In this document: in pieces, positions 4,913-44,447 of the stretch
How the letters are laid out: each line of letters starts with the position of its first letter
Position numbering within the stretch: the first letter of the stretch is position 1
Virus record (IMG/VR): IMGVR_UViG_3300042922_000339
Coordinates: 1-45,607 of that record
Direction: 5' to 3' (one strand)
Origin: a virus
DNA length: 45,607 nucleotides
Made by a program: the position numbers and the translations under genes
The notes under the pieces: generated by a model
Databases searched by the model: none
What the model saw: the letters and a program-made list of their open reading frames with translations, nothing else
What the model was told of the DNA's origin: nothing

Positions 4913-6106
4913 GTGGCTGGTATCACCGGTCTCGGGACGACCTTCAACCTCCCGAACTACCACGGCGAGCTCATCGCCATCACCCCGACGGACACCCCCC
5001 TCCTGTCGCTCTCGGGCGGCCTCGGCGGAGGTAAGCAGACCACGTCGACCGCGTTTGAGTGGCAGACGGAGGATCTTCGCGACCCGGAGATCCGTGCCCG
5101 CCTTGAGGGTGCGGACGCCCCGACTGCTGAGTCTCGTGTGCGCGCGAACGTTGAGAACGTCGTGCAGATCTTCCACGAGACGGTCGAAACGTCGTACACG
5201 AAGCAGGCCGCGACGGGTCAGTACGCGACCCCTGGGTCGGCGCCGTTCCACTCGGCTGACGGTGAGGCTAACCCGGTCACGGATGAGCACTCGCACCAGG
5301 TGGCGAACGCGCTTAAGACGATCGCGCGTGACGTCAACTACACGTTTTGGCACGGCAAGAAGGTCAAGCCGTCGTCGAACGCGACGGCTCGCCAGTCTGC
5401 CGGCATGCTGTCGGTCATTTCGACGAACCGCATCGCGACGGGTGAGATCTCGGGTACGACCGCGACGGACACGGTCACCGCGACGCACGACTACGCGGCT
5501 GGTGACAAGGTTGTTGTGACGGCGTTCTCGGGTACCGCGCTCCGGTTCGACCGCGTGTATTACGTCGTGTCGCCTACGTCGACCACAGCCTTCAAGCTGG
5601 CCGCGACTTCTGGTGGTGCGGCGATCACGCTTGGTACGGGCACCATCTCGGTCGTCCCCGCGGAGACGACGCTGACGGTCGACAGCCTGGGCGTTCTCAT
5701 GCAGCGCGTGTTCGACTCGGGCGGCATCTCGCAGGAGGCGACGGCGACCCTGTTCGCGTCGTCCCGGCAGAAGCGTTCCCTGACCGCTGCTTACGCGACG
5801 GCGTACGGCCAGTCGGACGCCTACTCGGGCACCCGGAACGTTGCCGGTCTCGACGTGCAGACGATTGAGACGGACTTCGGTCGCCTCAACGTCGTCGTGG
5901 ACCGTGCGCTCCCCCCGGACGCCCTCGCGGTTGTCAGCCTCGAGCAGGTTGACCCGGTCTTCCTCAGCATCCCCGGAAAGGGTGTGCTGTTCGAGGAGGA
6001 GCTGGCGAAGACGGGCGCGAAGGACCGCACCCAGATCTACGGCGAGATCGGCCTCAAGTGGGGCAACGAGCTCTCGCACGGTGTGATGCGCGGCCTGACT
6101 GTCTGA
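4913..6106 (+). CDS. Major capsid protein with inserted domain
   Basis: 397 residues from GTG 4913, with AGGAG six bases upstream. The flanks look like the DUF5309/SU10-type HK97-fold capsid family: an N-terminal segment MAGITGLGTTFNLPNY, a central EDLRDPEIRARLEGADAP, and a C-terminal GLKWGNELSHGVMRGL. Between about residues 175 and 255 sits an extra beta-rich module (HDYAAGDKVVVTAFSG, then YYVVSPTSTTAFKLAAT, then GGAAITLG). It resembles the small Ig-like modules found in other phage structural proteins and would project from the capsid surface. Confidence 0.88.
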   Translation: MAGITGLGTTFNLPNYHGELIAITPTDTPLLSLSGGLGGGKQTTSTAFEWQTEDLRDPEIRARLEGADAPTAESRVRANVENVVQIFHETVETSYTKQAATGQYATPGSAPFHSADGEANPVTDEHSHQVANALKTIARDVNYTFWHGKKVKPSSNATARQSAGMLSVISTNRIATGEISGTTATDTVTATHDYAAGDKVVVTAFSGTALRFDRVYYVVSPTSTTAFKLAATSGGAAITLGTGTISVVPAETTLTVDSLGVLMQRVFDSGGISQEATATLFASSRQKRSLTAAYATAYGQSDAYSGTRNVAGLDVQTIETDFGRLNVVVDRALPPDALAVVSLEQVDPVFLSIPGKGVLFEEELAKTGAKDRTQIYGEIGLKWGNELSHGVMRGLTV

Positions 6107-15808: not shown

Positions 15809-16432
15809 ATGCCTAACGTGTCCCCTGAGAATGTGCGGACCCCGGCCGGGTCGGATGCGTATGCGTTGACGACTGATTTGCGGTTGATGGGGGAGTCGAT
15901 CCGGTCTCTCGTGCCGGTTGCTTCTACGTCGGCTCGTGATGCGGTCGTGGCTGCGATGGTTACTGCGGGGCGGCCGGTGACGACTGCGAACCCGATCATC
16001 GTGGTGCGTGCTGACGCACCTGCCGGTGCCGAGGTGGAGATCTCGACGGACGGTACGAACTGGCGGACGCTCGGCAGCGACTCTGGCGCGAACGTCACTT
16101 CGTTCGGGACGGGTTGGTCGTCGACCGGTTCGGGTCACGTGCCTCGAGTGCGTAGGGACGGGAACCAGGTGTTTCTGTACGGCGCCGTCACGTTGGCTGC
16201 TGGCGGGGCGTTCACGAACATCCTCACGGTCCCGGCGGACTATCGACCGCCGACTGCGTCCACACGGTTCATCGGAGTCTCGCCGCTGGACCCGGCGGGC
16301 GGGACGCCCGGCATCCGGGTGCTGACGATGGGGACGGGCGGGGTCGTGTCCTCCCCCTCGTCGTACGGCATCCCGGGGTCGATGAACGTCGGTGGCGTCC
16401 TCCCCCTTATCGCGTCGTGGTGGATGGACTGA
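15809..16432 (+). CDS. Minor tail protein
   Basis: 207 residues from ATG 15809, chosen because AGGAG lies upstream and the previous gene ends at 15771. N-terminal region PNVSPENVRTPAGSDAYALT, then a Val/Thr/Gly-rich beta domain with QVFLYGAVTLAAGGAFTNIL and FIGVSPLDPAGG, the type of short strand-rich domain found in tail fibres. Stop overlaps the next start (TGATG). Exact role unknown. Confidence 0.65.
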   Translation: MPNVSPENVRTPAGSDAYALTTDLRLMGESIRSLVPVASTSARDAVVAAMVTAGRPVTTANPIIVVRADAPAGAEVEISTDGTNWRTLGSDSGANVTSFGTGWSSTGSGHVPRVRRDGNQVFLYGAVTLAAGGAFTNILTVPADYRPPTASTRFIGVSPLDPAGGTPGIRVLTMGTGGVVSSPSSYGIPGSMNVGGVLPLIASWWMD

Positions 16433-17259
16433 TGGGGTTCACGTGGGTCAACGGGCCCGGCGGCGGGACCCCTGTATCGGCCGCGAACTTGAACGACCTG
16501 TTGCAGACCGCGGACCTGGACGACGAGGTCGCGTATCTGCTGGGCAACCCGACGGCTGCGACCACGCTCGCGGTGGACGGGATGCTGGACGCGAAGGTTG
16601 ACCCGCTCACCGCGGGCCGGGTGCAGGGCGCGTCTGGTCGGGCGTACCGGGTGATCGCTGGCGTGCTGCGGAACTCGGGGTCCGGGTGGGCCTTCCTGAA
16701 TGACTCCGGGCACCAGCCGACGAACATCACGTCGGTGTCGGCGAACTCGACTGCGATCACGATCAACTACGGGTTCACGGGCACGAAGGTCGCGGCCCTG
16801 CTGGTCACCCCGGATGAGACGTTCGCGCAGGACGGGTACTTCGCGGGGGCGTCGGTCGGGTTGTCGTCTTCGACGATCAAGCTCGCGCGCATGGGGCAGT
16901 CGGTCAGCGACTACGTGTCGTACAACGGGACCACGTGGACGTCTCTGGCGGGGGTGTTCACGGGCCTGTCGTTCTCGTCGGGGACGCTCACCCTCACGCA
17001 CGATTCGATGACGGGCGCTACGGGTTCTGTCGCGGGCCGTGGCGGGATTTACCAGCCGCAGCTCGGCGCCATGTCGGCGACGACGACGCAGGTCGAGTTC
17101 TTCGACTGGGCGGGCACGAAGATCACGACGGCTAACACGAACTGCCGCGCGTATGTCACGCGGAACACGAACCGTGTGCTCACACCGGTGGACCCGACGA
17201 CTATCACGGCGCCGACCGCGAACCTGTGGGTGCTGGGTCTGATCGAGGTTGCTCCATAA
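16432..17259 (+). CDS. Tail-tip/fibre protein, paralog of the secreted protein at 23090
   Basis: 275 residues from ATG 16432. The start GFTWVNGPGGGTPVSAANLN is an attachment-type segment common in actinophage fibres. Residues about 74-155 and the last 20 residues match the secreted protein at 23090-23545: RVIAGVLRNSGSGWAFLNDS, then YGFTGTKVAALLVTPDETF, GASVGLS and TPVDP...NLWV. Between these blocks this protein carries about 90 more residues, some 60-70 more than the paralog. Likely a distal structural or receptor-contacting part. It precedes the lysis cassette. Confidence 0.75.
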   Translation: MGFTWVNGPGGGTPVSAANLNDLLQTADLDDEVAYLLGNPTAATTLAVDGMLDAKVDPLTAGRVQGASGRAYRVIAGVLRNSGSGWAFLNDSGHQPTNITSVSANSTAITINYGFTGTKVAALLVTPDETFAQDGYFAGASVGLSSSTIKLARMGQSVSDYVSYNGTTWTSLAGVFTGLSFSSGTLTLTHDSMTGATGSVAGRGGIYQPQLGAMSATTTQVEFFDWAGTKITTANTNCRAYVTRNTNRVLTPVDPTTITAPTANLWVLGLIEVAP

Positions 17260-19905: not shown

Positions 19906-22518
19906 GTGGCTACACCCACCGTCGTAGGGACCGCGGCCTCCGGAGCTCGAGGCAGCGCGAACATCACCGTCACCCCGCCCGGGGGGACGGTCGGCGCTAT
20001 CGCGGTCATCGGGCGCTACCACACGAAGACGGTCACGCCGCCGTCCGGGTGGACCCTGTACCAGACGCGGTCGCGCGGGAACATGCGCATCGACGTGTAC
20101 GTGGGCACGACGTCTGCTGGGGCGGTGTGGGGGCAGTCGGCCGGTGATGAGCCGACGACGATCGTCCTGGCCGGGTATGACCGGCTCGTGTCGGCGGCGG
20201 GTTTCCTTGGCGCGGACGGCAACGTGTCGCCCGCCATCGGTGTGACCGCCGGTGACTTGGTGCTGTTCGGGTTCACGGACTGGCCCGACGACACGACGGC
20301 GCGGTCCGCGCCCACGGGCACGTCGAACACGCGCGTCGGGTCCACGCCGGATGGCGCTGGCATCCCGATGGTTGCCGGCCTCGCCCACATCGTCGCCGCC
20401 TCGACGGGGACGCAGCCCGCGGCGACGTGGGGGCCGACGTCCGGCATCACGCCCTGGCTCCCGCAGTCAGTGTCGCTGCGCGTCACGGACGCCACACCCG
20501 CCCCGGTGGAGGGCAAGTTCGTCACCACGACGGACGGCCGCCGCTTCCTCGACCAGGACGGCGAACCCGTCCTCCTCAAGGGCGATTCGCCGTGGTCCGC
20601 GATGGCGAACACCACTCCGGCGCAGTGGACCACCTACTGCCAGTACCTCGCGTCCGTCGGGTTCAACACGATCATCCTCGACCTCGTCCCGCTGCCTGCG
20701 GGTGGCGGCCCCTACGTGCGGGCCGAGGCCGAGACCTACGACGGGTTGAAGCCGTTCACGACGTTCGGCGACTGGTCTACAGCGTCGGGCGCGTACTGGA
20801 CCCGGGTGGACCAGTTCGTCACCACCGCGGAGACGTACGGCCTGTCCATCGCAATGGTCCCGGCCTACGCCTCCCAGGGGTCACCCGGGAGCGCGGCCGA
20901 TGTCCTGTCCGGGCAGACCACGACGCAGATCCAGGGCTACGGCACGTTCCTCGGCAACCGGTACAAGACGGCACCGAACGTCATCTGGGTCATCGGCGGC
21001 GACTACGGTGCCGACCTTGTCGGGTCACCGAACAACGCCGCCGTCTGGGCGGAGTACGTGTCCGCGTACAACACGCTCGCTACTGCGATCGGCGCGACCG
21101 GGGATACGCACCTGGTGACGACGCACCTGTACCCGCCGCCGTCCGGCACCCGCTACACCGGGTCCACGTCAGCTGATCACACCGGGCTGCCCATCGCGGA
21201 CTTCGAGTTCACGTACATCTACGAGCCGCCCTACCCGGTGGTTCGTCGTGCGCTCGGTCTCGCGTCCCACCCGGTGATCTTCGGTGAGGGCAACTACTCG
21301 AACGAGAACAACCAGGGTGGCCCGTCCACGACGAACGAGACGCTGCGGCGGGCGCGCCTGTGGGCTTACTCGTCCGGTGTCGCGGGCGACTTCATGGGCA
21401 CGGAGCAGTGGCGCGGTCAGGCGGGGTGGGTGTCGTCCATCCCGCGTGCCGCGTACACGCAGGCGCAGGCCATCCACCAGGCGGTCGAGTCGATCCCGTG
21501 GTGGAAGCTGGTCCCGGACGCGTCGAACGTGTTCCTCACGTCGGGGCAGGGCACGCAGCCTTCGTCGGGCACGCAGGACTTCTCGGGCGTTGACCCGTTG
21601 GAGTCGTCCTACGCGACGGCGTCCGTGGCGACGGACGGCACGGTCGGTGTCGTGTACGTTCCAACTGCGCGGGCGTTCACCGTCGACCTGTCCAAGCTGG
21701 GGTCGACCAGCCGGACCCTGCGCAGGGTGGACCCGACGAACGGCACGTCCACGAGCATGACCGTGTCGGGCTCTATCGCATCATCCGGTGCGAACGCCTC
21801 CGGCGACTCCGACTGGCTGTACCTGTTCCAGGCGGACCCGCTGGTTGTGTCTCACTCGGTTTCCGGGACGGTCGCGGGTACGTCGACTGTGTCCGGGGCC
21901 GTGACGGTTCGCCGCTCGGCGGCGGGCACGGTCGTTGCTCTGTCGGGTGCGATTGGGTCTGTGACGTCGAGGCATGTGGCGTCGGGTTCGGTTGCTGCGG
22001 TGTCGTCTGCTGCGGGTTCGGTAACGGCCCGGCTGCCTGTGTCTGGTGCGGTTGCGGCGGTGTTCACTGTCGCGGGTTCGGTACTGGGCCAGGGCGACGT
22101 ATCGGGTGTCATCTCCGTGGTGAGTGGCACGTTCGGGGCGGTGACTTCACGGCACGTCGTGTCGGGAACCGTCGCCGCCGTGTCGTCCGTGTCGGGTGCG
22201 GTCACGTCCGACACGGGGTCTACGAACCTCCCGGTTGCAGGGGCAGTCGCCGCCTCCTCGAGCGCGTCGGGTTCGGTCACGGCGAGGCATGTCGGTGCGG
22301 GGATTGTGGCCGCCGTGTCGACCACGAACGGGGCCGTCACGGCGCACCACACGGTGGCGGGAACCGTCGCGTCGGTCAGCCTTGTCGCGGGCAACGTAAC
22401 CGGGTCCGGAGACATCCCCTGGCCGTCGCTGCTCACGCTCACGGGGATCACCCAACCGGTCGAGCTCGCGCCAGCCGACGCACCAAACCGCACACTCACA
22501 CCAGTGGAGGCCACGTGA
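19906..22518 (+). CDS. Tail fibre protein with glycoside-hydrolase-like domain and repeats
   Basis: 870 residues from GTG 19906. Residues about 1-190 form a beta-rich domain seen at the front of phage fibres (TPPSGWTLYQTRSRG). Residues about 203-520 look like a DUF4038/apiosidase-type TIM barrel: GRRFLDQDGEPVLLKGDSPW, then FNTIILDLV, NVIWVIGGDYG and HPVIFGEGNYSNE, where E at about 460 may be catalytic. A collagen-binding-like C-terminal module follows (GTVGVVYVPTARAFTVDLSK). Residues about 647-836 are nine degenerate 20-residue repeats of the type VSGTVAAVSSVSGAVTSRH. It probably trims a host surface glycan during adsorption; the substrate cannot be read from sequence. Confidence 0.78.
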   Translation: MATPTVVGTAASGARGSANITVTPPGGTVGAIAVIGRYHTKTVTPPSGWTLYQTRSRGNMRIDVYVGTTSAGAVWGQSAGDEPTTIVLAGYDRLVSAAGFLGADGNVSPAIGVTAGDLVLFGFTDWPDDTTARSAPTGTSNTRVGSTPDGAGIPMVAGLAHIVAASTGTQPAATWGPTSGITPWLPQSVSLRVTDATPAPVEGKFVTTTDGRRFLDQDGEPVLLKGDSPWSAMANTTPAQWTTYCQYLASVGFNTIILDLVPLPAGGGPYVRAEAETYDGLKPFTTFGDWSTASGAYWTRVDQFVTTAETYGLSIAMVPAYASQGSPGSAADVLSGQTTTQIQGYGTFLGNRYKTAPNVIWVIGGDYGADLVGSPNNAAVWAEYVSAYNTLATAIGATGDTHLVTTHLYPPPSGTRYTGSTSADHTGLPIADFEFTYIYEPPYPVVRRALGLASHPVIFGEGNYSNENNQGGPSTTNETLRRARLWAYSSGVAGDFMGTEQWRGQAGWVSSIPRAAYTQAQAIHQAVESIPWWKLVPDASNVFLTSGQGTQPSSGTQDFSGVDPLESSYATASVATDGTVGVVYVPTARAFTVDLSKLGSTSRTLRRVDPTNGTSTSMTVSGSIASSGANASGDSDWLYLFQADPLVVSHSVSGTVAGTSTVSGAVTVRRSAAGTVVALSGAIGSVTSRHVASGSVAAVSSAAGSVTARLPVSGAVAAVFTVAGSVLGQGDVSGVISVVSGTFGAVTSRHVVSGTVAAVSSVSGAVTSDTGSTNLPVAGAVAASSSASGSVTARHVGAGIVAAVSTTNGAVTAHHTVAGTVASVSLVAGNVTGSGDIPWPSLLTLTGITQPVELAPADAPNRTLTPVEAT
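21844..22413 (+). repeat. Nine degenerate ~60-bp (20-residue) coding repeats
   Basis: The C-terminal part of the fibre gene repeats a V-S/A-G-x-V-A-A-V-S-x-x-x-G-x-V-T-x-R-H unit about nine times with drift. The alternating small/hydrophobic pattern suggests a stacked beta structure or flexible stalk. Unit number may vary between relatives through slippage. Confidence 0.8.
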
Positions 22519-22802
22519 TCACGGTCAAGTACGGCGACACGCACACCATTGCGTGGGCTGTGAACGCGGACCTGTCCGGGGCGACAGTCAGGTTGCTGTT
22601 TCGGAAGGTCGGGGCCACCGAGTCGGTCGAGGCCGGGGGCACCGTGACGGACGCCCCAAATGGGGTCGTGACGCACACCTTGACTGGGACGCTGCCGATC
22701 GGCCACTACGACGTCGAGGTGGAAGCCACGAAGTCTGGTGCGGTTACCACGGCGCCCTCGGTCGGGTATGAGCGCCTGGTGGTTGCTCGGGATCTCGGAT
22801 GA
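22515..22802 (+). CDS. Small Ig-like minor tail protein
   Basis: 95 residues from GTG 22515, overlapping the fibre stop by four bases. The pattern VKYGDTHTIAWAVNADLSGA, then RLLFRKVGA and PIGHYDVEVEATKSG resembles the BppU-type N-terminal Ig-like domain of baseplate proteins. Last gene of the rightward structural operon; a strong terminator follows at once. Confidence 0.65.
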   Translation: MITVKYGDTHTIAWAVNADLSGATVRLLFRKVGATESVEAGGTVTDAPNGVVTHTLTGTLPIGHYDVEVEATKSGAVTTAPSVGYERLVVARDLG

Positions 22803-22805
22803 ACG

Positions 22806-22837
22806 AACGCCCCTCTCGCTTCGGCGGGAGGGGCGTT
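22806..22837. terminator. Bidirectional UUCG-capped terminator
   Basis: AACGCCCCTCTCGC (22806-22819) pairs with GCGGGAGGGGCGTT (22824-22837) with one T-G wobble and a TTCG loop, followed by TTC on the plus strand. It lies between the end of the tail operon (22802) and the end of the minus-strand HTH gene (22841), so it can serve both. Confidence 0.88.
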
Positions 22838-22840
22838 TCG

Positions 22841-23035
22841 TCACGCCCGGACGATCTTGACGACGGCGTTCTTGGACAGTCCGAGGTTCTTCGCGATGCG
22901 GTACGCGGTGACTCCTTCGGCGACGAGCTGCCGGATGTAGTCGTCGCGGGCTTGGCGTGCACGCTTGGCTTCGTCGTCGGCTGCTGCGACGGCCTGGTGG
23001 AGCGTCGCTAGTTGGTCGTTCCAGGTTTCATCCAC
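22841..23035 (-). CDS. Small HTH DNA-binding protein
   Basis: 64 residues from GTG at 23035-23033. N-terminal charged helix (AVAAADDEAKRARQARDDYI), then a clear helix-turn-helix: LVAEGVTAYRIAKNLGLSKN with AVVKIVRA at the end. The resolvase/sigma-like HTH (GVTAYRIAKNLGLSKNAV) occupies almost the entire C-terminal half. No Shine-Dalgarno; a promoter placed six bases upstream predicts a leaderless mRNA. It diverges from the secreted-protein gene and probably controls the shared promoter region. Confidence 0.8.
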   Translation of the reverse strand: MDETWNDQLATLHQAVAAADDEAKRARQARDDYIRQLVAEGVTAYRIAKNLGLSKNAVVKIVRA

Positions 23036-23041
23036 TGAACT

Positions 23042-23070
23042 AGTACACCACAGTTGCCGTCGGGGGGTAA
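23042..23070 (-). promoter_or_regulatory. Leaderless promoter of the HTH gene
   Basis: On the minus strand: TTACCC (23070-23065), 17-base spacer, TGTACT (23047-23042), then six bases to GTG 23035. Expected transcription start is at or next to the start codon, which explains the missing ribosome-binding site. Confidence 0.55.
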
Positions 23071-23082
23071 CCGTGGTGTACT
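23054..23082 (+). promoter_or_regulatory. Leaderless promoter of the secreted-protein gene
   Basis: TTGCCG (23054-23059), 17-base spacer, TGTACT (23077-23082), then seven bases to ATG 23090. Geometry mirrors the divergent promoter. No Shine-Dalgarno precedes the ATG. Confidence 0.6.
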
Positions 23083-23089
23083 ACTTGGC

Positions 23090-23545
23090 ATGAAGCGCAC
23101 ACAGATCACCCAGTCCGCCGTCGCCACCGTCATCGGCATCACCATCGGCGCCACCGCAGCGACCAACCTGCCCACGAACGACCCCGCACCCGCCGTCGTC
23201 GAGCAGCAGACCACCGCGCGCGTCTCCGGCACCGTCCGCTGGCAGTCCCCCACCACGTGGGCACCCGTGCACGACGCCGGCCACGAGCCCGTAGGCATCA
23301 AGGATGTGCAGGTCCTTCGCGACCGTCTCCGCGTCCGCTACGACTTCACCGCCGCCAAGGTCGTCGAGCTCCAGGTGACGCCCGACGAGTCCTTCACCGC
23401 GGCGAACGTCCGGTGCGGTGCGTCCGTCGGGCTCTCCTACACGGACGTGTTCTGCTACATGCCCGGCAAGACGACCCCGGTCGACCCGTCGCTCCTGACG
23501 CGCAAGGGCGGGAACATCTGGGTGTCGGGAGAGTTCGACCTCTAG
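23090..23545 (+). CDS. Secreted paralog of the phage tail-tip domain
   Basis: 151 residues from ATG 23090. The N-terminus has a signal-sequence layout: MKRTQ, hydrophobic core AVATVIGITIGATAA, then a Pro-rich linker; no lipobox. The mature part aligns with the tail protein at 16432-17259: RVSGTVRWQSPTTWAPVHDA, then YDFTAAKVVELQVTPDESF, GASVGLS and, after a shorter middle, TPVDPSLLTRKGGNIWV. Two cysteines, C109 and C122, flank GASVGLS where the tail protein has alanines, which suits a disulfide in an exported protein. Own promoter, divergent HTH regulator, and a place beside attP point to expression from the prophage. A role in blocking receptors or superinfection is inference. Confidence 0.85.
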   Translation: MKRTQITQSAVATVIGITIGATAATNLPTNDPAPAVVEQQTTARVSGTVRWQSPTTWAPVHDAGHEPVGIKDVQVLRDRLRVRYDFTAAKVVELQVTPDESFTAANVRCGASVGLSYTDVFCYMPGKTTPVDPSLLTRKGGNIWVSGEFDL

Positions 23546-23838
23546 CGGGCGAGGGATGCGAGGAGGCGGGTCAGCAGCGACCCGATCCGGTGGCATCCGC
23601 ACGAGCACCGCAGCGGCTCCATGAACATGTCGTCCACGAAGAACCCCGGGCACGCGGCATGCGTGCAGTCGGGCGCGTCGCCGAACGCGGGCTCAAGGGT
23701 CACGAGTCCAGTGTCGCATCGTCGCGCACCCTGACGTGACTGAATGATTGAATCATTGCGACATGCGCCCCATGCTCTGACTTCGAGGTACTCGGCGAGG
23801 CGTGCGAGCTGGGTGGTGGTGAGGGTGATCTCGTCCAT
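23542..23838 (-). CDS. Unknown Cys/His-rich protein
   Basis: 98 residues from ATG 23838-23836 (an in-frame GTG at 23868 is possible). The start MDEITLTTTQLARLAEYLEV is helical. The C-terminal half has CTHAACPGFFVDD and CSCGCHR, a possible zinc site. It converges with the secreted-protein gene and overlaps its stop by four bases. Lying between that gene and attP, it would also be near the prophage edge. Function unknown. Confidence 0.6.
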   Translation of the reverse strand: MDEITLTTTQLARLAEYLEVRAWGACRNDSIIQSRQGARRCDTGLVTLEPAFGDAPDCTHAACPGFFVDDMFMEPLRCSCGCHRIGSLLTRLLASLAR

Positions 23839-23882
23839 GCGACCGATGGTGACGGCATGGTCTGACACGGGGGCGGCGTCGG

Positions 23883-23911
23883 GATCGGCCGACACTTGAT
23901 TCTGGCCGATC
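23883..23911. repeat. 8-bp inverted repeat GATCGGCC/GGCCGATC
   Basis: GATCGGCC (23883-23890) and GGCCGATC (23904-23911). A second, overlapping pair CTTGAT/ATCAAG (23895-23900, 23909-23914) competes with it, so alternative folding or a protein-binding role is possible. Confidence 0.6.
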
Positions 23912-23915
23912 AAGT

Positions 23916-23954
23916 CGAAGACCCCGTGCGCACGTAGGCAACACGGGGTCTTCG
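23916..23954. terminator. 13-bp perfect hairpin
   Basis: CGAAGACCCCGTG (23916-23928) pairs with CACGGGGTCTTCG (23942-23954) around 13 bases. No strong T-run on either side, so it is terminator-like or a binding site. It lies upstream of the minus-strand gene ending at 23542. Confidence 0.55.
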
Positions 23955-23955
23955 T

Positions 23956-23997
23956 GTGTCCACCATGGCCCCTCATGTGGACGAGGGTGGTGGACAC
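23956..23997. repeat. 10-bp inverted repeat GTGTCCACCA/TGGTGGACAC
   Basis: Arms at 23956-23965 and 23988-23997, loop of 22 bases. GTGTCCAC recurs at 24197-24204, just before the next gene, which suggests a protein-binding sequence, possibly for integrase arms or excisionase. Confidence 0.5.
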
Positions 23998-24020: not shown

Positions 24021-24105
24021 GCAGGTCAGCAGGGGTGGAGGTGCGGGGAATCGAACCCCGAACGCGACGAGTAGTGCGACGTGCTGAAAACCCTGCCTGA
24101 CCTGC
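24021..24105. other. Candidate phage attachment site (attP)
   Basis: On the minus strand 24060-24036 reads as a tRNA 3' end: T-stem CGGGG, loop TTCGATT, stem CCCCG, acceptor strand CACCTCC, discriminator A. No matching 5' half (GGAGGTG) or anticodon arm exists here, so it is a fragment, as expected for an attP core matching a host tRNA or tmRNA 3' end. It is enclosed by GCAGGTCAGCAGGG (24021-24034) and CCCTGCCTGACCTGC (24091-24105), inverted repeats with one bulge. Integrase lies 770 bases downstream. Confidence 0.7.
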
Positions 24106-24551: not shown

Positions 24552-24871
24552 GCGACGACGAGCAGTTCTGTTCCCGTTGCTTCGCGGGCGTCGAGTCCGA
24601 CGAGCACCACACCAAGTGTGTGATTACCAGGTGGGCCGACGACGGTTGGTCAGCCCCTGCGACCGCCCCCACGTGGGCCGAGCACCGGGGGCCGAAGCGC
24701 GCGTGGGCCCCCATGGGATTCGTCTTCGTCCGCTCCACTCCACTCCGCGAGGGATGGGTCCGAGAGGGATGGATTGACACCCATCGCGGCGACTACGTCG
24801 AGCGATGGGTGGACCCCGTCGGCGAGTGGCCCGCCGGGTGGATCGACGCTGACCAGCCCGAGGCATCCTGA
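24548..24871 (+). CDS. Unknown protein with zinc-finger-like N-terminus
   Basis: 107 residues, start overlapping the previous stop (ATGA). CSRCFAGVESDEHHTKC gives a C-x2-C...H-H-x2-C pattern. The rest is Trp-rich (EGWVREGWIDTHRGDYVERW). It ends one base before the integrase start, so it may be translated together with integrase. Too different from known excisionases to name. Confidence 0.65.
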   Translation: MSDDEQFCSRCFAGVESDEHHTKCVITRWADDGWSAPATAPTWAEHRGPKRAWAPMGFVFVRSTPLREGWVREGWIDTHRGDYVERWVDPVGEWPAGWIDADQPEAS

Positions 24872-24872
24872 C

Positions 24873-25994
24873 GTGGCGTCCATCCGTCACCGCACCACAT
24901 CCAAGGGCACGGTCATGTGGCAGGTGCGGTACAGGGACAACGACATCTCCCGCTCCGAGACGTTCGACACCCGGGAAGCCGCCGAGACGTTCAAGCGCCT
25001 GGTCGACGACCTCGGACACGTCGAGGCCCTCACGATCCTCCGTGAACGTGAGGGCAACACGTCGCACACCCCGAACGTGCGGGACTGGTGCACCGAACAC
25101 ATCGACACCCTCACCGGAGTCACCAACGGCACCCGGGACCGCTACCGTCGCGTCGTCGCCACCAAGCTCGGAACCCTCGCCCACCTACCCATCGACGCCG
25201 TCACACCCGCCAGCATCGCCCGCTGGGTCAACGGCCTCGAAGCACGCGGCATGTCCGGGAAGACCATCGCGAACCATCACGGCTTCCTGTCCGCCGCGTT
25301 CAAGTCGGCGGTGCGCGCAGGGTTGATCCCGGCGAACCCGTGCGAAGGGACGCGCATCCCGAAGACCGAACGCCAAGAGATGGTGTTCCTCACGCACGAC
25401 GAGTTCACCGTGCTCCTCACCCACATCCGGCCCGACGCACAACCCATGGTCGCGTGCATGCCCGCCACAGGGCTCCGCTTCGGAGAGCTCACCGCCTTGC
25501 AGGTTCGCGACATCGACCTCTTGAACGGGTCACTCACCGTGTCCCGCTCATGGAAGTACACCGAGAACAGTGAAATGGTCCTCGGCGCACCCAAGACGAA
25601 GCGGTCACGCCGCACGATCTACGTCCCCGGGCAGGTGCTCGCGATCCTCGAGCACGCCTGCGCCGGCAAGACACCTGAGGCGTTCGTCTTCACCAACCAG
25701 GCCGGGGCGCCCTGGACCCGCTCCCGGTTCCACGAGGGCGTGTGGCAGCCCGCCGTACGCGCCGCCCTCCCGACCCTGCGGAAGAAGCCCCGCGTCCACG
25801 ACATGCGCCACACCTGCGCCGCCTGGCTACTCCGCGCCGGGGCATCCATGTACACCGTGCAAAAGTACCTCGGCCACGAGTCCTACTCCACAACCGCCAA
25901 CGTCTACGCCCACATGGAACCCGCCGAAATGCGACGCGCCGCAGACGCCATGACCGCCGCCATCGGCGGGGCGCTGCCAGCAATCGAACCCTGA
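24873..25994 (+). CDS. int: Tyrosine integrase
   Basis: 373 residues from GTG 24873. N-terminal AP2-like arm-binding part (RHRTTSKGTVMWQVRYRDND), SAM-like core-binding domain with LGTLAHLPIDAVTPASIARW, then the catalytic domain with R202 (ATGLRFGELTAL), H309-x2-R312 (HDMRHTCAAW), H335 (LGHES) and Y345 (ANVYAH). All five main residues are present, so it should be active. It inserts the phage at a host tRNA-like site; the attP candidate is upstream at 24021-24105. Codon use is strongly C-ending. Confidence 0.95.
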   Translation: MASIRHRTTSKGTVMWQVRYRDNDISRSETFDTREAAETFKRLVDDLGHVEALTILREREGNTSHTPNVRDWCTEHIDTLTGVTNGTRDRYRRVVATKLGTLAHLPIDAVTPASIARWVNGLEARGMSGKTIANHHGFLSAAFKSAVRAGLIPANPCEGTRIPKTERQEMVFLTHDEFTVLLTHIRPDAQPMVACMPATGLRFGELTALQVRDIDLLNGSLTVSRSWKYTENSEMVLGAPKTKRSRRTIYVPGQVLAILEHACAGKTPEAFVFTNQAGAPWTRSRFHEGVWQPAVRAALPTLRKKPRVHDMRHTCAAWLLRAGASMYTVQKYLGHESYSTTANVYAHMEPAEMRRAADAMTAAIGGALPAIEP

Positions 25995-27169: not shown

Positions 27170-27252
27170 CCGCCACTGGTGGAACAGCAGACACGCGTGG
27201 CTCAAACCCACGTGCCCTCACGGGCGTCCGGGTGCGAATCCCGGGTGGCGGA
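27170..27252 (+). tRNA. tRNA-Leu (anticodon CAA)
   Basis: Acceptor CCGCCAC (27170-27176) pairs fully with GTGGCGG (27245-27251); discriminator A at 27252. D-stem GTG/CAC; anticodon stem CGTGG/CCACG with loop CTCAAAC (anticodon CAA at 27203-27205); class II variable arm GCCC-TCAC-GGGC; T-stem CCGGG/CCCGG. The T-loop is TGCGAAT instead of TTCGAAT. CCA is not encoded. It would read UUG, a codon used in the T/G-ending late genes. Confidence 0.85.
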
Positions 27253-27258
27253 CGTGCA

Positions 27259-44213: not shown

Positions 44214-44287
44214 ATGCCCAAAGTGTTACGGAAGCACGCCGGTCTCCAAAACCGGAAGCCCAGGTTCGACTCCTGGTGGGTGTGCCA
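44214..44287 (+). tRNA. tRNA-Trp (anticodon CCA)
   Basis: Acceptor ATGCCCA/TGGGTGT (two wobble pairs), D-stem GTGT/GCAC, anticodon stem CCGGT/ACCGG with loop CTCCAAA, T-stem CCAGG/CCTGG with loop TTCGACT, discriminator G and encoded CCA (44285-44287). Confidence 0.88.
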
Positions 44288-44288
44288 A

Positions 44289-44362
44289 GCCTGGTTAGCA
44301 CAACCGGATAGTGCACCCGCCTGTCGAGCGGGAGGCTGCGGGTTCGAACCCCGTACCAGGCG
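44289..44362 (+). tRNA. tRNA-Asp (anticodon GTC)
   Basis: Acceptor GCCTGGT/ACCAGGC perfect; D-stem GCAC/GTGC; anticodon stem CCCGC/GCGGG with loop CTGTCGA; T-stem GCGGG/CCCGT with loop TTCGAAC; discriminator G at 44362. CCA not encoded. Begins one base after tRNA-Trp, so the two are surely cotranscribed. Confidence 0.92.
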
Positions 44363-44447
44363 CAACACCAACTCCCCCACCCGGCACCACACAGCCACCC
44401 ACGAGGGGCACACGGCCGGCGAGTGAGGGGTGCACCACGGAGGGCGC

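Follow-up and report, generated by a model that had tools for sequence, protein, structure and literature searches.

The gene described here is located in IMG/VR virus record IMGVR_UViG_3300042922_000339, the whole of which (45,607 nt; 45.6 kb) was analyzed and is called the window below. It begins with the ATG at position 23090 of the plus strand, its stop codon ends at 23545, in agreement with the first-pass annotation, and it encodes a protein of 151 aa whose first residues are MKRTQITQSAVATVIGITIGATAAT. The features of this locus, and of the tail gene with which it is compared, are the following:

16432–17259, plus strand: tail protein with the homologous domain (phrog_24580, 3e-28; BLASTP; predicted structure)
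16897–17187, plus strand: inserted second domain of the tail protein, approximately residues 156–252 (about 95 aa), absent from the exported protein according to alignment and models
22806–22837, no strand: terminator-like hairpin following the tail-gene run (inverted repeat I3)
22841–23035, minus strand: gene of a 64-aa HTH DNA-binding protein, divergent from the exported gene (phrog_7061, 3.7e-7)
23038–23086, no strand: inverted repeat containing perfect AGTACACCAC cores in the gap that separates the two divergent genes, a candidate operator (repeat analysis)
23090–23545, plus strand: gene of the probably exported, lectin-like protein
23090–23212, plus strand: signal-like N-terminus and short linker, residues 1–41 (hydropathy, low pLDDT, hydrophobic N-termini of exported relatives)
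23213–23542, plus strand: lectin-like head domain, residues 42–151 (alignments, AlphaFold2 model, structure comparison)
23414–23416, plus strand: codon of C109, common to L031
23453–23455, plus strand: codon of C122, common to L031 only
23542–23997, minus strand: convergent ORF of uncertain true start, with its stop overlapping that of the exported gene (ORF list)
24034–24060, no strand: attP core resembling a tmRNA 3' end (Rfam tmRNA, 1.3e-7; 26/27 bases in several Microbacteriaceae genomes)
24774–25994, plus strand: tyrosine integrase (PF00589, 4e-23; phrog_1, 1.7e-75)

The run of tail genes upstream stops at 22802, just before the hairpin. Since it is placed between one divergent and one convergent gene, the exported gene is monocistronic; it forms a transcription unit to itself, separate from the tail operon, and its control probably lies with the divergently encoded HTH protein, for which the inverted repeat between the two start codons is the candidate operator. 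A search for this HTH protein in annotated phages gave no match. The promoter of its own that had been ascribed to the gene is plausible from the layout (the divergent HTH gene and the inverted repeat), although a sigma-70 consensus scan detected no site, a result that says little for a high-GC phage. The tmRNA-type attP lies approximately 0.5 kb from the gene, which would thus be found about 0.5 kb from one end of the prophage. Two more inverted repeats are present between the gene and attP (23916–23997), one with 13-nt perfect arms and the other with GTGTCCACCA arms, possibly a terminator and sites for recombination proteins. Elsewhere in the window, downstream of the lysis genes, an 870-aa tail-region protein (19906–22518, plus strand) contains an apiosidase-like glycosidase domain (PF13204, 1.4e-36) and gives a weak match of the collagen-binding type, and genes for tRNA-Leu(caa), tRNA-Trp(cca), and tRNA-Asp(gtc) are located at 27170–27253 and 44214–44363.

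The N-terminus of the 151-aa protein has an excess of positive charge ahead of a hydrophobic stretch, as in the N-region and core of Sec-type signals, and ranks sixth in hydrophobicity among the called genes of the window. Judged from these residues the protein is likely exported via its N-terminal signal. Its remaining part is homologous to the tail protein encoded at 16432–17259, as the first-pass annotation had proposed. BLASTP aligns the two with an E-value of 4e-17 and 40 of 109 residues identical (37%). The Smith-Waterman score of the mature part against the tail protein is 142, compared with a mean of 31 (sd 5) and a maximum of 60 in 1000 shuffles, and for the C-terminal TPVDP...N-x-WV block taken alone the score is 59, the highest among its shuffles being 35. 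The profile phrog_24580, 'tail fiber protein', is matched by each of the two, by the full exported protein at 9.5e-7, and the D-x2-H, PDE, GASVG, and N-x-W positions that it retains are invariant or nearly invariant columns in alignments A1 and A5. A translated search of the whole record found the domain at two places only, the exported gene and the tail gene. The exported protein possesses neither the N-terminal region of the tail protein nor its insert of about 95 aa, as seen in both the alignment and the model; lacking this second domain, it reproduces the receptor-contacting end of the tail only in part. A second BLAST segment hinted at an internal duplication in the tail protein, the halves of which align no better than shuffled sequences. 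Searches of Pfam, NCBIfam, and PADLOC with the exported protein or its domain returned no family matches, so no known defense family of PADLOC is represented.

The AlphaFold2 model, computed with the exported protein and 29 related sequences, is a confident beta-sandwich with one short helix; the pLDDT block means are 92–99 across residues 41–151 and low in the signal part. The comparison of the two predicted structures that had been recommended yields folds that are not unrelated: the strand order of the tail-protein model is the same, with the insert placed between the last two strands of the common domain. When the exported model was compared with predicted viral proteins, tail proteins matched best: the homologous ones of Arthrobacter phages (E 4e-9) and, at an rmsd of 2.6–2.9, those of Bacillus phage PM1 and Enterobacter phage EcP1. 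Foldseek against the PDB gave nothing below 1e-3 (best E 0.016), and no relatives of solved structure were found by sequence. Among the best VIA-align matches a viral envelope protein (Z 6.9) stands above AP22 gp53 (6.7), SLL-2 and LKA1 gp49 (both 6.2), the R1 pyocin fiber (6.1), the Pam1 tailspike (5.6), and the Helix pomatia agglutinin (5.3); the Z-scores of 5–7 of the lectin-like neighbors, being below 8, may mean a common fold class only.

This list overlaps with that reported for the R-pyocin foot, a receptor-binding domain of lectin fold whose neighbors include AP22, SLL-2, the Helix agglutinin, LKA1, and Sf6 (PMC6363177, PMC6116203). The predicted fold of the exported protein appears similar to the R1/R2 pyocin foot and to AP22 gp53, yet no sequence relation to them is detectable, and the pyocin foot terminates a long fiber whereas the exported protein stands alone and its sugar binding is putative. 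Likewise, the H-type lectins (Helix pomatia agglutinin) and SLL-2 are beta-sandwich lectins of about 100 aa with an apparently comparable fold, but these are animal proteins with no sequence relation to it, and the likeness seen is one of predicted fold. The inserted domain of the tail protein, compared on its own, shows similarity to portions of two tailspikes, those of Pam1 and phi297, which suggests that the exported protein may be devoid of the most distal contact. The missing second domain is possibly the real receptor contact, and the ligand of the exported protein may differ from that of the tail.

Among annotated phages, tblastn with the exported protein detected the domain in Arthrobacter and Rhodococcus phages only; with the tail protein, further weak matches appeared in one Aeromonas and one Vibrio phage. 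The annotated-phage matches examined are tail or adjoining structural genes. Tail fiber or minor tail proteins of phrog_24580 are encoded by Arthrobacter phages Beagle (gp42, gp50), Shambre1 (gp20, gp50), Anjali (gp14), Mendel (gp16), and Qui (gp38), and by Rhodococcus phages Pepy6 and E3. The exported protein shares with them D-x2-H-x-P, PDE, G-A/P-S-V, and N-x-W, and the strand order seen in the model of the window's own tail protein; unlike it, the tail genes contain further N-terminal regions and the inserted second domain of about 95 aa, and they lack its signal-like N-terminus. A profile scan of IMG/VR, together with a hand-made DNA pattern (V-x-P-D-E, nine residues, G-A-S-V-G), yielded numerous tail versions and a group of short ones; because such pattern scans miss any member that lacks the chosen motif, the short forms are incompletely counted and their sampling is biased. 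Exact peptide patterns derived from the exported protein alone were too specific and found no relatives in viral or genome contigs.

In the short versions GASVG runs straight to the final N-x-W strand, without the tail insert, and all nine short forms of alignment A4 match phrog_24580. A hydrophobic N-terminal segment (signal or membrane) accompanies the short domain in high-GC phages, which are probably actinobacterial (the window, L031, L034/L043, L082, and L117/L130), in low-GC phages (L016, L032, and L033), and in two bacterial genomes, a Bacillus and an Oscillospiraceae genome (L044, L046). Short forms without a signal occur within tail operons (L079 and L028/L029) and in Hymenobacter (L045). 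In L117/L130 a Pro/Glu/Thr-rich stretch of about 65 aa separates the signal from the domain, as expected of a wall-spanning surface protein. Exported and tail versions are found together in four phages: the window, G1399 (L082 with L020), G1404 (L033), and G1402/G1403 (L117/L130). The data do not bear out a matching tail copy as a general trait of carriers: several records, some of them fragments, contain the exported form alone, with no tail copy in the available sequence. The tail versions of L030, L084, L087, L099, and L033 measure 301–318 aa from the common start, against 205–225 aa, i.e., approximately 100 aa above that of the window, as if an extra unit had been inserted at the same place.

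The first-pass annotation also described two cysteines exactly flanking GASVGLS where the tail protein has alanines. In the alignment C109 is indeed opposite an alanine, but C122 is opposite a leucine and six residues past GASVGLS. The two residues are situated on the two strands of one hairpin (108–113 and 117–123) of the model, and a disulfide between them is therefore possible. The pair recurs in L031 only; L034, L079, L082, and L130 have neither cysteine at these positions, and three of these, L034, L082, and L130, do have a signal, so the pair can serve neither as a hallmark nor as a general feature of exported forms. A lone cysteine at the position of C109 also turns up in the tail proteins of some other phages (L037, L087, and L099). 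The cysteine pair is a local feature and no condition for export.

The gene had further been regarded as a re-tooled copy of the phage's own tail gene, a pairing named before any tree was available. Maximum-likelihood analysis unites the exported protein with the short proteins from five other records, L031, L034, L079, L082, and L130 (UFBoot 99/SH-aLRT 98), while the window's own tail protein is placed among the tail versions; forcing the two copies of the window together is rejected (delta lnL 70, AU p = 6e-5). A recent duplication of the tail gene is thereby ruled out, and on this phylogeny the exported gene is part of an older lineage of short proteins. L016, L032, and L033 constitute a second exported clade (support 100/98), and the well-supported branches require three or more switches between the short form and the tail form. 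Gene-by-gene comparison showed that the stretches with L031, L070, L079, and L082 have almost nothing else in common with the window, and for that reason the exported gene seems to travel independently.

The gene is mostly phage-borne and seldom present in bacterial genomes. Among 400 Microbacteriaceae genomes no convincing match was found, only one weak partial match inside a 10947-aa frame, and 396 Actinomycetota genomes contained none; in the Bacillota and Clostridia-class samples the matches were confined to the query genomes themselves, and within the Bacillus query's own family 3 of 19 genomes, the query included, carry the gene. In L046 (4829–5374, minus strand, and 5518–5859, plus strand) the exported short version has no obvious phage neighbors and is divergent, as in the window, from an HTH regulator gene. 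The exported short version of L044 (4933–5412, minus strand) also has no obvious phage neighbors; alginate-O-acetylation-type genes and a transposase-like ORF are close by.

What was originally recognized in the window, a virion domain of the receptor-contacting type that forms an exported protein by itself and is encoded next to a regulator gene and near attP, holds, and the architecture recurs in other phages, in varied surroundings. The exported gene follows a helicase gene in G1399 and runs opposite to the tail and lysis genes in L130. It overlaps the end of the tail gene or operon in L031 and is located between tail and holin/lysin genes in L016, L032, and L033, and the contexts of these four suggest late expression. 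One expression program does not fit the gene positions of all carriers. In the low-GC phage L033 (5193–7416) a domain-bearing tail gene is directly followed by the membrane-anchored short version and by holin-like and amidase-like genes.

Adsorption blocking seems the likeliest use of the exported protein. According to this reading, which is put forward tentatively but as a serious possibility, the gene is a horizontally mobile accessory phage gene whose lectin-like head domain, once outside the cell, binds a host glycan and lowers the adsorption of other phages. The protein would leave the cell by means of the signal visible in its sequence, and the mature part is predicted with high confidence to fold as a beta-sandwich resembling the sugar-binding foot of R-pyocin fibers; without a tail-attachment region it would not be expected in the virion. 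Were it to bind a surface glycan used by other phages, their adsorption to the lysogen or infected cell would fall. Exclusion of phages of the carrier's own type cannot be the general purpose, because several carriers show no tail copy. L079, signal-less and located in a tail operon, belongs to the same short clade and counts against this reading, as do the late-type contexts of L031, L016, L032, and L033, the missing second domain, and the Z-scores below 8. It is also conceivable, if more doubtful, that phages from two or more host groups carry a mobile immunity gene for an exported, free-standing lectin-like head domain of the tail-fiber type, which by occupying host glycans and blocking adsorption would define a superinfection-exclusion class based on the kind of receptor-binding fold that phages themselves use.

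A function in lysogenic conversion, in which the exported protein would act as an adhesin that alters host attachment to surfaces, partners, or glycans and would have no anti-phage role, is unlikely but the most credible of the alternatives: exported versions occur also in bacterial genomes without obvious adjacent phage genes (L044, L046) and the window gene is near attP with its own regulator, yet the gene is found mainly in phages, four carriers also have the tail version, and in L031, L016, L032, and L033 it stands with tail or lysis genes. The positions in these last four records, overlapping the tail gene end or preceding the lysis genes, would suit a factor made at the end of infection that covers receptors on the dying cell and its debris and spares the progeny re-adsorption. 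A similar purpose has been proposed for some phage lipoproteins. Such a late role is rather improbable, as a hairpin and a gene on the minus strand stand between the tail genes and the window gene, and the copies of G1399 and L130 follow a helicase gene and run against the late genes, respectively.

That the hydrophobic N-terminus is no export signal and the product is a small tail component has a low probability. The signal-less short forms L079 and L028/L029 within tail operons would fit it, L079 being in the clade of the window protein; however, six of the seven records of the clade have a hydrophobic N-terminus at that place, three of them a stronger one than the window, the linker-bearing form of L130 suits a surface protein, and the exported protein has no tail-attachment region. 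Least probable of all is that the exported domain spoils the arriving virion by binding its tail protein or forming mixed trimers with it, the receptor staying uncovered. The domain is of the type found at trimeric fiber ends and both versions coexist in four phages, but virion fibers are trimers assembled beforehand and the identity between the exported and tail domains is just 37%. The likeliest function is action at the host surface, with adsorption blocking as the leading idea.

Among known systems, the Ltp superinfection-exclusion lipoproteins (phage TP-J34, PMC3952083) are likewise small exported proteins of temperate phages encoded near integration functions. Ltp of TP-J34, a lipoprotein, contains two HTH repeats and blocks the injection of DNA (PMC3952083), whereas the exported protein has no lipobox (there is no cysteine in residues 1–108) and is predicted to be a lectin-like beta-sandwich instead of two HTH repeats. 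No description of an exported paralog of a tail head was found in the open-access literature, which is weak evidence of absence.

Phages may thus export a piece of their tail that acts at the host surface, perhaps keeping other phages off. If this is true, the recognition end of the tail has been reused in exported form, probably on more than one occasion, by way of a gene passed among phages that are otherwise unrelated. Genes of this kind, for which Pfam and NCBIfam gave no family match, would be recognizable by the signature of GASVG linked directly to N-x-W with no insert, and the small, confidently predicted lectin-like domain would be an aid in finding host receptors. For some phages of Gram-positive hosts it offers a testable idea of how adsorption may be controlled.
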